The notes under the pieces: generated by a model
What the model was told of the DNA's origin: nothing
Seen by the model: the letters and a program-made list of their open reading frames with translations, nothing else
Databases searched by the model: none
Part shown: in pieces, positions 30,473 to 43,466 of the stretch
Numbering within the stretch: the stretch's first letter is position 1
How the letters are laid out: every line of letters starts with the position of its first letter
Program-made: the position numbers and the translations under genes
Origin: Clostridia bacterium
Lineage (GTDB): Bacteria > Bacillota > Clostridia > UMGS1810
Direction of reading: 5' to 3'
DNA length: 64,000 nucleotides
Assembly (NCBI GenBank): GCA_017502845.1
Contig: JAFVUE010000004.1
Coordinates: forward strand, 62,001 to 126,000

Positions 30473-30945
30473 TTATTCATTGTAAAAGCAATCGTCCTCC
30501 CAACGTATCGGATTTGTGTCGATGTATTCCCATATCATTTTGTAATCCTGCTCATTACGGATAATATGGTCGTGGAATGACCGTTGGAAGATAGGGTGCC
30601 CTATTTCCTTTGTAACCAATGTCTTGAGAGAACGGACAATACTTACGATGCTTGTAGGGGCCACATCGTCCCGTTAAGGGATATCAATAAATGAATATGA
30701 TTCGGCATTATCACATATTTATCAACAGATACATTCTCATATTTATTGTTTATATTTTTGATATACTTATCACAAACACGCCCATATTCGGACAATTCGT
30801 TTTTCGGGACGATGTGGGCATCGTCCCCTACGATTTTTCCGAGAATGTGTTTTTTATCCTTCACACATACCGTTATAAAATATGCACCGGGGGATGAATA
30901 ATCATATTCTTTCAACCGTGTAGGTTTCCGTTTGGGTAAATCCAT
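30473..30945 (-). pseudogene. REP-associated tyrosine transposase (Y1/HUH), frameshifted
   Basis: The N-terminal part (ATG 30945 to a stop at 30643) begins MDLPKRKPTRLKEYDYSS, then GAYFITVCVKDKKHILG, and carries the HUH motif MPNHIHLLI. The C-terminal part, in another frame (about 30664-30473), reads SLKTLVTKEIG...FQRSFHDHIIR...YIDTNP with the family's conserved tail. Together they make one TnpA_REP transposase of normal length (about 160 residues). The frame is lost inside a GTAGGG-family palindrome (30654-30674) that lacks seven bases, ACGATGC, of one arm; restoring them rejoins the frames exactly. A second complete palindrome (30805-30831) is translated as VGDDAHIVP. The ATG overlaps the end of uxaC. 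Confidence 0.88.
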
Positions 30946-30946
30946 A

Positions 30947-32338
30947 TTATATTCCGAGATATGTTTTTGCGTTATTGTAACAGATGCCTTTAACGATTTC
31001 TTCGAGTGCATCCCAATCTTCGGGGTATTCGCCGTTTTCTACCCATGTACCGATAAGGTTACACATAATTCGTCTGAAATACTCGTGTCTTGGGTATGAG
31101 AGGAAGCTTCTTGAGTCTGTGAGCATACCTACGAATTTGGAGAGCAATCCGAGGGATGCGAGATTTCTCATCTGCTCTTCCATGCCGTCTCTGTGGTCAA
31201 CGAACCACCATGCAGTACCGAACTGTATTTTAGATGGTGCTTCGCTGCTCTGGAAATTACCGAGCATTGTGCCGATAACAAAATTGTGAACGGGATTGAG
31301 TGTATAGAGAATTGTCTTGGGGAGTTTTCCGTCTTTGTCAAGAGCGTCTAAGAAGAGTGCAAGTTTTGCGGCAATCTTCTCGTCTGCAATTGAGTCAAAG
31401 CCCGTATCGGGACCAAGTTTTTCAAACATTCTGCTGTTGTTGTTTCTCTGTGCACCGATGTGGAGCTGCATTGTCCAGCCGAGTTCGTGGAATTTCTTTC
31501 CGAGTGCGAGCATAATCTTTGTCTTGTAGCAATCGCCCTCCTGTTCAGTAATCTTCTCTCCTGCCATAGCACGTGTAAAGATGCTGTCAATTTCTGCATC
31601 AGTTGCAACTTCAAACGGAACATATACAAAAGCGTGGTCGGAAATCTTACCACCGATTTCGTTAAAGAAATCTGCTCTCTTTATAAGTGCGGAGATAACG
31701 TCGTCAACATTTTTGATCTCAACTCCTGCCACTTCGCTGAGCTTTGCAATATACTCTGCAAAACCATCTGCAGTAATATTAACTGCTTTGTCGGGACGGT
31801 ATGTAGGCAGAACTCTTGTCTTGAATGTATCGTCCTTTTTGAGGGCAATGTGATACTCAAGTGAATCCGCAGGATCGTCTGTTGTGCAGACAACTTCAAC
31901 ATTGGATGATTCTATAAGTTTACGTGCAGACATACCTTTGAGTTTTTCTTTTGTCTCTTCCCAGATGGCGTCTGCTGTCTTTGAATTAAGGGGAGTTGTA
32001 ATACCGAAAAATCTCTGGAGTTCAAGGTGTGTCCAGTGATATAAGGGATTGCCTATGCAAAGGGGCATAACCTTTGCCCATGCATCAAACTTCTCTCTGT
32101 CAGTTGCATCGCCTGTCATGAATTTCTCGTCAAGACCTGATGAACGCATTGCTCTCCATTTGTAATGGTCGCCGTAGAGCCACACCTGTGTGATGTTCTC
32201 ATACTTTAAGTCCTCGTAAATCTCCTTGGGACTTAAATGGCAATGGTAGTCAATGATCGGCATTGATGAAGCATACTCGTGATAGAGTTTTTTTGCTGTT
32301 TCGTTAGAAAGGAGAAAATCCTTGTCCATAAATTTCAT
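30947..32338 (-). CDS. uxaC: Glucuronate isomerase
   Basis: 463 residues, standard length for UxaC, which isomerises D-glucuronate to fructuronate (and galacturonate to tagaturonate). Signatures: MPIIDYHCHLSPKEIYED with metal-binding HxH, MQLHIGAQRNNN, and the C-terminal SRSFLSYPRHEYFRRI. AAGGAGAG lies upstream of the ATG. It is the second gene of the THF-riboswitch transcript, 22 bases after the ECF gene; no other hexuronate genes (uxaA, uxaB, kdg) are in the window, which is unusual. Confidence 0.95.
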   Translation of the reverse strand: MKFMDKDFLLSNETAKKLYHEYASSMPIIDYHCHLSPKEIYEDLKYENITQVWLYGDHYKWRAMRSSGLDEKFMTGDATDREKFDAWAKVMPLCIGNPLYHWTHLELQRFFGITTPLNSKTADAIWEETKEKLKGMSARKLIESSNVEVVCTTDDPADSLEYHIALKKDDTFKTRVLPTYRPDKAVNITADGFAEYIAKLSEVAGVEIKNVDDVISALIKRADFFNEIGGKISDHAFVYVPFEVATDAEIDSIFTRAMAGEKITEQEGDCYKTKIMLALGKKFHELGWTMQLHIGAQRNNNSRMFEKLGPDTGFDSIADEKIAAKLALFLDALDKDGKLPKTILYTLNPVHNFVIGTMLGNFQSSEAPSKIQFGTAWWFVDHRDGMEEQMRNLASLGLLSKFVGMLTDSRSFLSYPRHEYFRRIMCNLIGTWVENGEYPEDWDALEEIVKGICYNNAKTYLGI

Positions 32339-33793: not shown

Positions 33794-34771
33794 ATGAAAA
33801 AACAGGAATTACAATTTGATGATATTTGCAGTTTGCTTGATATAAATAATTCTGCAGACGAACTTTATGCACTTGCTGATGAGATAACAAAGGAAACCAA
33901 AGGCAACACCGTAAATGTCCGGGGGATTATAGAGTTTTCCAATTACTGCAACAGGAACTGTGCCTATTGCGGACTTAATTGCCACAATACTACCCTTGGC
34001 AGATACAGAATGTCACCCGATGAGATTATCGAAACTGCCCTTGAAGCATCGGATGCAGGGTACAAGACAGCAGTTCTGCAAGGCGGTGAAGATCCCTGGT
34101 TTACTGCGGATGTGTTCTGCCATATTATTAAAGAAATAAAATCTAAAAGAGATATCGCAATCACACTCAGCGCAGGAGAAATGAGCGAGGAAGATTACGC
34201 CGCAATACGGAAAGCAGGTTGCGACAGATACCTTTTGAAGCACGAAACAACGGATAAGGATATTTACAGTAAACTCCACCCCGGTTACAATATTGATGAC
34301 CGTCTCAATTGCCTCCGCACTTTGAAACGGCTTGGGTTTGAAACAGGTGGCGGATTTATGATAGGACTTCCTGAACAAACAGCGAAAACCATTGCAAACG
34401 ACTTGCTTTTTATAAAATCCGTTCCCTGCGATATGGCAGGTATCGGGCCATTTATTCCGCACCCCGAAACACCTCTTAAGGGGTGTGATTCGGGCAGTAC
34501 AGAACTTACACGCCGTGCCGTGGCAATTGCAAGGATTCTTCTTCCTGATATAAACTTACCTGCCACCACATCATTGGGCGTTATTGATAAGGAAGAGCGA
34601 AACAAGGTTTTCAGCGGCGGAGCGAATGTTATTATGAAAAAGGTTACTCCCGAAAAGTACAGAAAACTTTATGAGATTTACCCCGTAAACCACGGCAAAA
34701 TCAAATCCGTGGCCGAGGAGAGGGCAGAGATAAATGAGTTACTTGCGTCCATTGGAAAGGAGTGGGATTGA
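33794..34771 (+). CDS. hydE: [FeFe] hydrogenase maturase HydE
   Basis: 325 residues. ATG 33794 is chosen over a GTG two codons earlier. Radical SAM CxxxCxxC motif CNRNCAYCG (about 52-59); the sequence around it (IIEFSNYC), LQGGEDPWFT, the LKHETTD motif and the C-terminal GANVIMKKVTPEKYRK agree with HydE. The enzyme helps build the diiron subcluster of [FeFe] hydrogenase. It is followed by hydF with one base between; hydG and the hydrogenase itself are not in the window. Confidence 0.95.
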   Translation: MKKQELQFDDICSLLDINNSADELYALADEITKETKGNTVNVRGIIEFSNYCNRNCAYCGLNCHNTTLGRYRMSPDEIIETALEASDAGYKTAVLQGGEDPWFTADVFCHIIKEIKSKRDIAITLSAGEMSEEDYAAIRKAGCDRYLLKHETTDKDIYSKLHPGYNIDDRLNCLRTLKRLGFETGGGFMIGLPEQTAKTIANDLLFIKSVPCDMAGIGPFIPHPETPLKGCDSGSTELTRRAVAIARILLPDINLPATTSLGVIDKEERNKVFSGGANVIMKKVTPEKYRKLYEIYPVNHGKIKSVAEERAEINELLASIGKEWD

Positions 34772-34772
34772 T

Positions 34773-35948
34773 ATGAGTATAAACGAACTTCACTCCTCCG
34801 AGAGAGTGCATATAGTGTTTGTGGGAAAGCGCAACAGCGGTAAATCCTCTCTTATAAATGCTATCTCCGGTCAGGATATTTCAATAGTTTCCGATACACC
34901 GGGTACAACTACCGACCCTGTAAAAAAGGTTATGGAGGTCAGCGGTATCGGCCCTTGTGTTATAGTGGATACTGCGGGATTTGACGATGTGGGCGAACTT
35001 GGCAGTATGCGTGTTGAGAAAACACGCCTTGCCGTAAGGACAGCAGATGTAGTTGTCGCAGTTTTGAATGGCGAAGATAATGACCACACCGCAGAAATAG
35101 AATTTGTAAAAACACTTGGTTGCAAAAATATCCTCTATGTCCTTAATAAAACCGATATTGGAAATGGCAATTTCGATTCAGTCCCCGAACCGAAGATTAA
35201 AGTCAGCGCATTTTCAGGCAAGGGCATTGACGAACTTATTAAGATCATCGCAACCTACGCCCCCGAGAAGATTGCCGAACCAACTGTTACAGGCAATCTT
35301 GTGAAAAAAGGCGACACGGTTCTCCTCATTATGCCACAGGACGAATCTGCCCCCAAAGGCAGACTTATCTTACCGCAGGTTCAGGTTATCCGCGAACTTT
35401 TAGATAAAGGTGCTGTTCCCGTATGTGCTACATTGGAGTCGTTGCCCGATGCAATGGCAACTCTTAAAAGCGCACCCGACCTTGTTATAACGGATTCACA
35501 GGTTTTCGGTAAAGTGGTCGGGATAATCCCCAATGATTGGAGATTAACCTCATTCTCTGTTCTCTTTGCGGCATATAAGGGGGATATCGAACTCTTTATA
35601 AATGGTGCAAAAGCAATTGACGCTCTCACTACGGGAAGTAAAGTGCTTATTGCAGAGGCGTGTTCCCACACTACAACTGATGCAGATGTTGCGAGAGTAA
35701 AGATTCCGAGTCTCCTGCATAAGAAGATAAACCCCGATATTGAGATAACAGTTGTGTCGGGTTCGGATTTTCCCGACGATGTTTCAGGGTATGACCTCGT
35801 TATTCATTGCGGTGCGTGTATGTTCAATAAAGCACACGTTATGAGCCGAGCCGATATCTGTGCAAAAAGCGGAACGCCTATGACAAACTACGGCATAGCA
35901 ATCGCACATCTTACAGGAATACTTAATAGAGTAATACTGCCTGAATAA
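34773..35948 (+). CDS. hydF: [FeFe] hydrogenase maturation GTPase HydF
   Basis: 391 residues from ATG 34773 (AAAGGAG upstream); an earlier in-frame start overlaps hydE and lacks a site. The N-terminal G domain has P-loop GKRNSGKSS, PGTTTDPV, DTAGFDD and NKTD. The C-terminal region carries the cluster-binding signature EACSHTTT and IHCGACMFN (His and Cys ligands of the [4Fe-4S] scaffold). HydF assembles the H-cluster precursor and hands it to apo-hydrogenase. Translation is coupled to hydE. Confidence 0.96.
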   Translation: MSINELHSSERVHIVFVGKRNSGKSSLINAISGQDISIVSDTPGTTTDPVKKVMEVSGIGPCVIVDTAGFDDVGELGSMRVEKTRLAVRTADVVVAVLNGEDNDHTAEIEFVKTLGCKNILYVLNKTDIGNGNFDSVPEPKIKVSAFSGKGIDELIKIIATYAPEKIAEPTVTGNLVKKGDTVLLIMPQDESAPKGRLILPQVQVIRELLDKGAVPVCATLESLPDAMATLKSAPDLVITDSQVFGKVVGIIPNDWRLTSFSVLFAAYKGDIELFINGAKAIDALTTGSKVLIAEACSHTTTDADVARVKIPSLLHKKINPDIEITVVSGSDFPDDVSGYDLVIHCGACMFNKAHVMSRADICAKSGTPMTNYGIAIAHLTGILNRVILPE

Positions 35949-36028: not shown

Positions 36029-36057
36029 TTGATATTCAATAAACTATATGCTATAAT
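36029..36057 (+). promoter_or_regulatory. Promoter of structured RNA copy A
   Basis: TTGATA, 17 bases, TATAAT; transcription expected at G36064, seven bases after the -10 box, exactly at the conserved GCCAAAC. Confidence 0.85.
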
Positions 36058-36063
36058 AAATAA

Positions 36064-36300
36064 GCCAAACAAATTTAATATTATGTATTGCCATGTATTT
36101 TTATTTCGGTAAAAATGCGTACTTTTTTAGTGCATGGTGATACTATAATTGAATTTGTTTGGCGACAATTCAGAGTACGCGTTTTTCATGCGCTGACTTT
36201 GAGTTGGCGCATTTTTTAATTTGCAGGAGAGAGTGTCTCCGTATGTTGGCGCACACATTTGATATCGCAAAAACGGACAGGTTTTACCTGTCCGTTTTTG
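36064..36300 (+). ncRNA. Structured non-coding RNA, copy A, unassigned class
   Basis: About 237 nt with no reading frame. Elements in order: closing helix GCCAAACAAATT / AATTTGTTTGGC (36064 with 36163); inner helix GTATTGCCATG / CATGGTGATAC; apical hairpin TTTTTA / TAAAAA; a conserved GTACTTTTTTA; a 61-base block after the closing helix with only one difference from copy B, containing hairpin ATGCGC / GCGCAT with loop TGACTTTGAGTTG; hairpin GGAGA / TCTCC; and a terminator stem ACGGACAGG / CCTGTCCGT with TTTTTG. Copy B at 43175 has different bases but the same pairs in several helices. It is convergent with the yitT-family gene. Confidence 0.85.
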
Positions 36301-36327: not shown

Positions 36328-37191
36328 TCACACATTTCTGAATCCCCTGCCGATAATCTCACTTGATGTTGTGATGATTATAAATGAATGGGGATCAATC
36401 TCTTTTATGTATCTGCGGAGTTTAATTGCTTCAATTCGTTTGCATACGGTGTGTACCATATATCTTTCTTCGTGGGTAAATTCGCCCTCCGCCTTATGTA
36501 CCGTTGCACCGTGGTGGAGAGTTTTTGTTATGTAGTCGGAAACCTCGTCTCTCTTTGTTGTGATAACAACGAAGTATTTGCAACTGTTTAAGTTTTCTAT
36601 AACCCCGTCTACGAGGAACGCTTTTGCAAAAAGACCGAGCAGAGAGAAAAGTCCTGTTTCAATGCCGAATACGGCAAAGGAACTTGCGGCGATTACGAAG
36701 TCTGTGCAAAGGAGCGCTTTGCCAACGTCGAGGTTAGAATATTTCTTGAGGATAAGGGCAACTATATCCGTTCCGCCTGATGATGCGGCGCAGTTGAACA
36801 TCATAGCCGAGCCGATAGCCGTTAAGATAATGGCATATATAAGTTCAAGGAACGGCTGATCGGAAAGTGGCGCAGTGAGTGGGCAAATGAATTCAAAAAC
36901 CCACGTAAGTGCCGAGAACATAAGTGAACAGTAAACTGTCTTTATTCCTGTTGTCTTGCCAAGTACCATAAACCCAAGGAGCAGCATAAATACGTTTATC
37001 CCTGCAATCCAGGTAGCGGGAGTTATCCACGGAGTTATGTTACCCAATATAGTACCGATACCGCTTACTCCGCCTGTGGAGAAACCGTTTGGAATCTTAA
37101 AGAAGTATACGCCTACGGACATAAGCAATACACCCAGATTCATTATGAAAAACTCTTTTATTGCCCTTTTTCGTTCTTTTGTCATAGCCAT
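36328..37191 (-). CDS. YitT-family membrane protein (DUF161 + DUF2179)
   Basis: 287 residues, the usual length. Five hydrophobic segments with the DUF161 signature GVYFFKIPNGFSTGGVSGIGTIL and SSGGTDIVALIL, then a cytoplasmic DUF2179 domain (about 225-287: HHGATVHKAEGEFTHEERYMVHTVCKR). The family is common in Firmicutes, has no firm biochemical role, and is often listed as a putative transporter. It stands alone. Confidence 0.9.
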   Translation of the reverse strand: MAMTKERKRAIKEFFIMNLGVLLMSVGVYFFKIPNGFSTGGVSGIGTILGNITPWITPATWIAGINVFMLLLGFMVLGKTTGIKTVYCSLMFSALTWVFEFICPLTAPLSDQPFLELIYAIILTAIGSAMMFNCAASSGGTDIVALILKKYSNLDVGKALLCTDFVIAASSFAVFGIETGLFSLLGLFAKAFLVDGVIENLNSCKYFVVITTKRDEVSDYITKTLHHGATVHKAEGEFTHEERYMVHTVCKRIEAIKLRRYIKEIDPHSFIIITTSSEIIGRGFRNV

Positions 37192-43139: not shown

Positions 43140-43168
43140 TTGATATTTTATAAAATCTGTGCTATAAT
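43140..43168 (+). promoter_or_regulatory. Promoter of structured RNA copy B
   Basis: TTGATA, 17 bases, TATAAT; the -10 box ends seven bases before G43175, the same geometry as copy A. Confidence 0.85.
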
Positions 43169-43174
43169 AACTAT

Positions 43175-43413
43175 GCCAAACAAATTTAATATTAGATTAG
43201 TTACGTGCGTTTTTATTTTGGTAAAAGCGTGTACTTTTTTATGCACTAACTAATGCTAATGAATTTGTTTGGCGACAATTCGGAGTACGCGTTTTTCATG
43301 CGCTGACTTTGAGTTGGCGCATTTTTTAATTTATAAGGACAAGTGTTCCTGAGGTTGTCTACACCACGCATTCGATTATACAAAAGCGGACGGGATAATC
43401 CCGTCCGCTTTTG
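43175..43413 (+). ncRNA. Structured non-coding RNA, copy B, unassigned class
   Basis: About 239 nt. It shares with copy A the closing helix GCCAAACAAATT / AATTTGTTTGGC, the inner GTACTTTTTTA, and the 61-base block with hairpin ATGCGC / GCGCAT (one base differs). Other helices keep the pairing with new bases: inner helix TTAG-ATTAGTTA / TAACTAAT-CTAA, apical GTTTTTA / TAAAAGC, small hairpin AGGA / TCCT, terminator GCGGACGGG / CCCGTCCGC. The aconitase gene downstream has its own promoter after the RNA terminator, so this is not a leader of that gene. Confidence 0.85.
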
Positions 43414-43437: not shown

Positions 43438-43466
43438 TTGACAAAATCTATATTTTTTTATACAAT
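43438..43466 (+). promoter_or_regulatory. Promoter of the aconitase gene
   Basis: TTGACA, 17 bases, TACAAT, 32 bases before the TTG start. Confidence 0.8.

Follow-up and report, generated by a model that had tools for sequence, protein, structure and literature searches.

The DNA examined here (the window) is a 64,000-nucleotide stretch of a draft genome of Clostridia bacterium (assembly GCA_017502845.1, contig JAFVUE010000004.1, positions 62,001 to 126,000), and all coordinates below are those of the window unless stated otherwise. It contains two copies of a structured RNA, copy A at 36064 and copy B at 43175. Copy A lies between hydF (HydF, 34734-35948, + strand) and a convergent YitT-family gene (36328-37191, - strand), and copy B lies downstream of a DUF559 gene and upstream of an aconitase gene that has its own promoter-like site at 43438-43466. 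A short ORF elsewhere in the window (30643-31011, - strand) resembles, by its MPNHIHLLI motif, a truncated REP-associated (Y1-type) transposase. An earlier note, made from the sequence alone, had described the two copies as a two-copy structured RNA with compensatory base changes, its own promoter and its own terminator, and had stated that it was not a leader and could be assigned to no class.

To evaluate this description, we examined the promoters, folded both RNAs, aligned the two copies with each other, and checked helices pair by pair. The features obtained were:

36029-36057, + strand: copy A promoter, TTGATA-17-TATAAT with TGC before the -10
36064-36217, + strand: copy A core RNA, from the predicted start to the end of the U tract of terminator T1
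36064-36163, + strand: copy A P1 hairpin, with P1 formed by 36064-36079 and 36148-36163 (16 bp), an inner stem by 36085-36094 and 36134-36143, and an apical hairpin by 36095-36104 and 36109-36118, all pairs canonical
36111-36125, + strand: copy A pseudoknot, apical strand AAAAATGCGTACTTT, 15 of 15 pairs canonical with 36172-36186
36172-36186, + strand: copy A pseudoknot, 3' strand AGAGTACGCGTTTTT, overlapping the 5' arm of the antiterminator
36166-36206, + strand: copy A antiterminator, 36166-36176 with 36196-36206 and 36179-36182 with 36190-36193, which excludes both T1 and the pseudoknot
36188-36217, + strand: copy A terminator T1, stem 36188-36212 and U tract 36212-36217
36218-36268, + strand: copy A tail between T1 and T2, containing the small GGAGA/TCTCC hairpin
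36269-36299, + strand: copy A second terminator T2, whose position suggests that it is shared with the convergent YitT-family gene
43140-43168, + strand: copy B promoter
43175-43327, + strand: copy B core RNA, with P1 formed by 43175-43187 and 43261-43273
43223-43237, + strand: copy B pseudoknot, apical strand AAAAGCGTGTACTTT, 15 of 15 pairs canonical with 43282-43296 although its sequence differs from copy A
43282-43296, + strand: copy B pseudoknot, 3' strand GGAGTACGCGTTTTT
43276-43316, + strand: copy B antiterminator
43298-43327, + strand: copy B terminator T1
43381-43413, + strand: copy B second terminator T2

Both promoters are TTGATA-17-TATAAT with an extended TGn -10, each with 11 of 12 matches, and the predicted start at GCCAAAC places the first G at 36064 and 43175. 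Both RNAs fold far better than dinucleotide-shuffled sequence (-97.9 kcal/mol, z -10.7 for A, and -94.7 kcal/mol, z -9.9 for B). The alignment of the two copies shows a nearly identical 3' block with diverged but still paired arms, and the helices checked by position were fully canonical. The observation made in the earlier note is therefore confirmed, with several additions: each copy has two terminators rather than one, a pseudoknot and an antiterminator had been missed, the draft genome (72% complete) holds a third, more diverged copy, and the family is large. The terminator described in the note is T2, and the inferred regulatory terminator, T1, lies about 80 nt upstream of it.

The note had itself named a match to an existing Rfam family as the outcome that would remove novelty. 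No Rfam 15 family reached its gathering score on the RNA in the window or in 20 relatives' loci, and sensitive scans of the copies and of these loci gave only sub-threshold, chance-level matches on the element. A Gut-1 RNA (Rfam) was found next to tRNA genes near one leader copy (locus L040, positions 595-666).

Distribution of the RNA in Clostridia

A DNA search of the 16 genomes of the window's family found homologues in 10. To examine the distribution further, we built a covariance model of the conserved 3' block (R1), which scores copy A at 79.4 bits (36138-36219) and copy B at 79.2 bits, and this model found the RNA in 73 of 291 sampled genomes of the class, in 46 of 180 genera, with E values down to 1e-16. 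In an evenly drawn phylum sample of 398 genomes, searched at a stricter cut-off, only the window's own genome matched. Copy number reaches 19 and 21 in two genomes that are 94% and 98% complete. Named records with the exact long-type pattern (see below) are gut and rumen Clostridia or Oscillospiraceae MAGs. A phage or prophage origin found no support, since the long-type pattern was absent from IMG/VR, copy A found no match in the phage collection searched, and two short-pattern matches in IMG/VR did not score with the model. A search of the literature found no paper describing this element, although it was limited to open-access full text, without subscription journals and supplementary files, and prior description under another name cannot be excluded.

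Shared architecture and covariation of the helices

Over 100 copies share one plan, in the same order in relatives. The promoter has TATAAT with at most one mismatch in 87 of 98 copies, TTGnnn at -35 in 90 of 98, and an extended TGn -10 in 88 of 98. It is followed by P1, whose 5' strand starts the RNA, arms of very variable sequence, an apical A-rich segment, the P1 3' strand, a short linker, the pseudoknot strand ending in a U tract, and T1. The pseudoknot strand is also part of the 5' arm of an antiterminator (36166-36182 with 36190-36206 in A) that excludes T1. Two length classes exist, of about 150-175 nt and 190-230 nt. Tandem arrays also occur, with P1 diverged between neighbours; at locus L149 (genome G006, contig C138, 35006-35512), three tandem copies about 215 bp apart, each with its own promoter and a different P1, are followed by an ORF.

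To evaluate whether pairing is under selection, we compared, for each helix, the duplex energies of strands from the same copy with those of strands dealt out among copies. Each copy paired better with itself, with z -28.8 for P1, -34.0 for the apical stem, -13.6 for T1, -8.1 for the antiterminator, and -7.0 for the pseudoknot over both subtypes, while two control pairings gave z 0.6 and -1.1. In 62 distinct copies, mostly of the short type, the pseudoknot gave z -10.1, and still -9.3 without the A5:U5 stretch. Because the copies are related and the permutations do not correct for this, the z-scores are not strict probabilities. Within the long subtype alone, the pseudoknot is conserved mostly by sequence, with 93% canonical pairing against 92% after shuffling, although sliding the register drops pairing to 55-63%; pseudoknot covariation therefore comes from the short subtype and from comparison between subtypes, and the long subtype alone is not used as evidence for it.

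In a nearest-neighbour estimate, the state with pseudoknot and T1 was favoured over the state with apical hairpin and antiterminator in all 98 copies, by about 10.5 kcal/mol on average. This estimate ignores pseudoknot loop entropy and geometry, and a rod of roughly 30 bp must fold back for its tip to reach the strand after P1. In the long subtype the apical segment can also form its own small hairpin (GAATTTG/CAAATTC), and in copy A the 10-bp apical hairpin overlaps the pseudoknot strand, so the pseudoknot must invade it.

Genes located downstream of T1

To determine whether the RNA is positioned as a leader, we searched downstream of T1 on the same strand for ORFs of at least 40 codons with a ribosome site. 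Such an ORF starts within 40 nt of T1 in 56 of 114 copies, against 6.7% at random positions, and within 110 nt in 81 of 114 (about 71%), against 15.8% at random positions. A start within 40 nt leaves little room for a separate promoter. Most copies are thus positioned as leaders, either attenuators or orphan riboswitch candidates. A Pfam scan of 68 downstream ORFs found BspA-type LRR proteins (10 of 68), Listeria-Bacteroides repeat, Cu-amine-oxidase-N, CHAP, M23, S-layer, Big_2, lectin and zinc-ribbon proteins and DUF6809, and small ORFs were also present downstream. A hydrophobic N-terminal segment was detected by a simple hydropathy rule in 47 of 89 distinct ORFs. In one genome (G245), many copies precede secreted proteins that look LRR-like and AbrB-like small proteins. 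AbrB-like small proteins lie behind leader copies in several genomes (loci L201, L212, L165, L174, L181 and L188), of which L201 matches the NCBIfam AbrB domain model and the others are assigned by resemblance. In another genome (G011), six copies (L215, L216, L218, L221, L223 and L224) each precede a paralogue of a 58-61 aa Cys-rich protein (IDVTGIxLTPGNxGKDCLGNG...ECCCxECxYL), which is also found behind leaders at the related loci L028, L043 and L064 and has no Pfam or NCBIfam match.

Copies without an ORF

Copies A and B belong to the minority that lacks an adjacent ORF, and each is closed off by T2. Ten of 159 copies carry, after T1, a tail antisense to the P1-3'/pseudoknot region, against about 1% of random windows. 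The tails match their own block better than other copies' blocks (0.3% of permutations as good), yet keep a GTCGCCAAAC-like core even where the copy's own P1 differs. Loci with this antisense block just after T1 are L027, L046, L047, L022, L135, L145, L146, L148, L150 and L153; those inspected lack a clear adjacent ORF, and most are followed by a second terminator. L146 is the third, diverged copy in the window's own genome (contig C9, 118184-118261, - strand), and its tail CCGAATTGTCGCCAAAC is the exact reverse complement of 17 bases of copy B. The tails of A and B are only weakly complementary to their own blocks (2-4% of shuffled tails pair as well, 3.7% for copy A), and pair somewhat better with each other's block (-26.9 and -26.5) than with their own (-22.6 and -21.9). 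We therefore treat A and B as ORF-less derivatives of unknown use.

Interpretation

The interpretation in the earlier note is supported in part. A real structured RNA with compensatory change and its own promoter, matching no Rfam family and none of the classes that the note excluded (6S RNA, SRP RNA, tmRNA, RNase P and known riboswitches), is supported, whereas "two-copy" and "not a leader" are not supported as general statements, since most copies in relatives sit directly in front of an ORF. For A and B themselves, the reading as a discrete transcript stands.

We consider it likely, though not certain, that A and B are members of a Clostridia-specific, multi-copy family of transcription-attenuating RNA switches. 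In this model, each unit has a strong, constitutive-looking promoter, and while the RNA is made, the long variable-armed hairpin would present its apical A-rich segment, which would pair with the strand after P1, once this emerges, as a 15-bp pseudoknot. This would sequester the 5' arm of the antiterminator, so that T1 forms and transcription stops, giving a default OFF state. A signal that keeps the apical segment from pairing, for example a bound ligand or protein, would free the strand to form the antiterminator and let RNA polymerase read on into the gene behind, typically one for a surface or very small protein. In A and B, read-through would only extend the RNA from about 154 nt to about 236 nt before T2, so these two are probably ORF-less derivatives that give a short RNA with a read-through form. 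The architecture, the helices, the mutual exclusion of the two states and the position in front of ORFs are shown by comparison, and comparison is the only evidence we have; the default OFF state, the direction of control, the existence of a signal and of regulated read-through in response to it, and any function of A and B are inferred.

A special case of this model, which remains possible but is held only tentatively, is a metabolite-binding riboswitch, in which a small molecule bound directly by the hairpin/pseudoknot domain would decide between T1 and the antiterminator. The mutually exclusive helices resemble a riboswitch expression platform, and the many copies per genome in front of a shared set of gene types recall second-messenger riboswitches, which are distributed in this way. 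However, the arms are hypervariable and the consensus shows little strong conservation outside P1, the pseudoknot strands and the terminator block, so no obvious ligand pocket was found.

It is less likely that A, B and the other ORF-less copies are trans-acting small RNAs whose extended form pairs with the conserved block of other copies. The antisense tails, the 17-base match between the third copy and copy B, and the better pairing of the A and B tails with each other's block are consistent with this idea. In contrast, tails match their own block better than other copies' blocks, a same-genus genome (G015) has tails but no detected copy with the sequence they would target, and the A and B tails are only weakly better than shuffled tails.

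A diverged member of a known RNA class (6S, tmRNA, raiA/ModT, ROOL, ToxI antitoxin, T-box and others) is very unlikely, since nothing beyond length and structure favours it and the Rfam scans gave only chance-level matches; in the case of 6S RNA, in which the 5' and 3' ends pair around a large central bulge, the 5' end here instead pairs with nt 85-100 of the RNA, and no 6S model matched. A mobile DNA element (MITE- or REP-like), with the hairpins as its termini rather than a working RNA, is equally hard to sustain: the inverted repeat P1, the several copies per genome, the tandem arrays and the patchy distribution would fit, but each copy keeps a promoter with its start at P1, P1 diverges with compensatory change even between tandem copies, the terminator, antiterminator and pseudoknot covary, and ORFs sit at fixed short distances.

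Among known systems, riboswitch and attenuator expression platforms share the position as a 5' leader in front of an ORF, the intrinsic terminator, the mutually exclusive antiterminator and an upstream domain that controls the choice. Here, the upstream domain is a long hypervariable hairpin whose tip makes a 15-bp pseudoknot with the antiterminator's 5' arm, no Rfam family matches, and no ligand or factor is known. The c-di-GMP riboswitch regulons of Clostridia likewise have many copies per genome controlling surface and secreted proteins, but no c-di-GMP riboswitch model matches, and architecture and conserved sequences differ. The raiA motif/ModT and other ornate Clostridia RNAs (PMC11706538, PMC12286853) are also structured noncoding RNAs common in Clostridia, whereas the RNA described here has no Rfam hit and is mostly a multi-copy leader with an antiterminator/terminator pair. 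Type III toxin-antitoxin leaders (ToxI; discussed in PMC8040213) share the order of promoter, structured RNA with a pseudoknot, terminator and ORF, but no tandem repeat unit was seen here, the downstream ORFs are diverse, and no ToxN is among the 25 families shown by the Pfam scan of 68 downstream ORFs.

A more far-reaching possibility, which we raise only tentatively, is that this is a new orphan riboswitch or signal-responsive attenuator class, restricted to Clostridia, in which a hypervariable hairpin acts as a molecular arm whose tip captures the antiterminator's 5' strand as a long pseudoknot. In this view, many copies per genome would place a surface-protein and small-protein regulon under one unknown signal, and ORF-less copies such as A and B would carry antisense tails and feed back in trans on the leaders.

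The presence of a structured RNA without an Rfam entry in a quarter of the sampled genomes of the class, with up to 21 copies per genome, suggests an unrecognised regulatory network of gut and rumen bacteria. Its downstream genes (BspA-type LRR, S-layer, cell-wall hydrolase and lectin proteins, and uncharacterised Cys-rich small proteins) suggest control of the cell surface by one signal. The family gives those unknown genes a shared regulatory label, and gives riboswitch researchers a testable orphan class.
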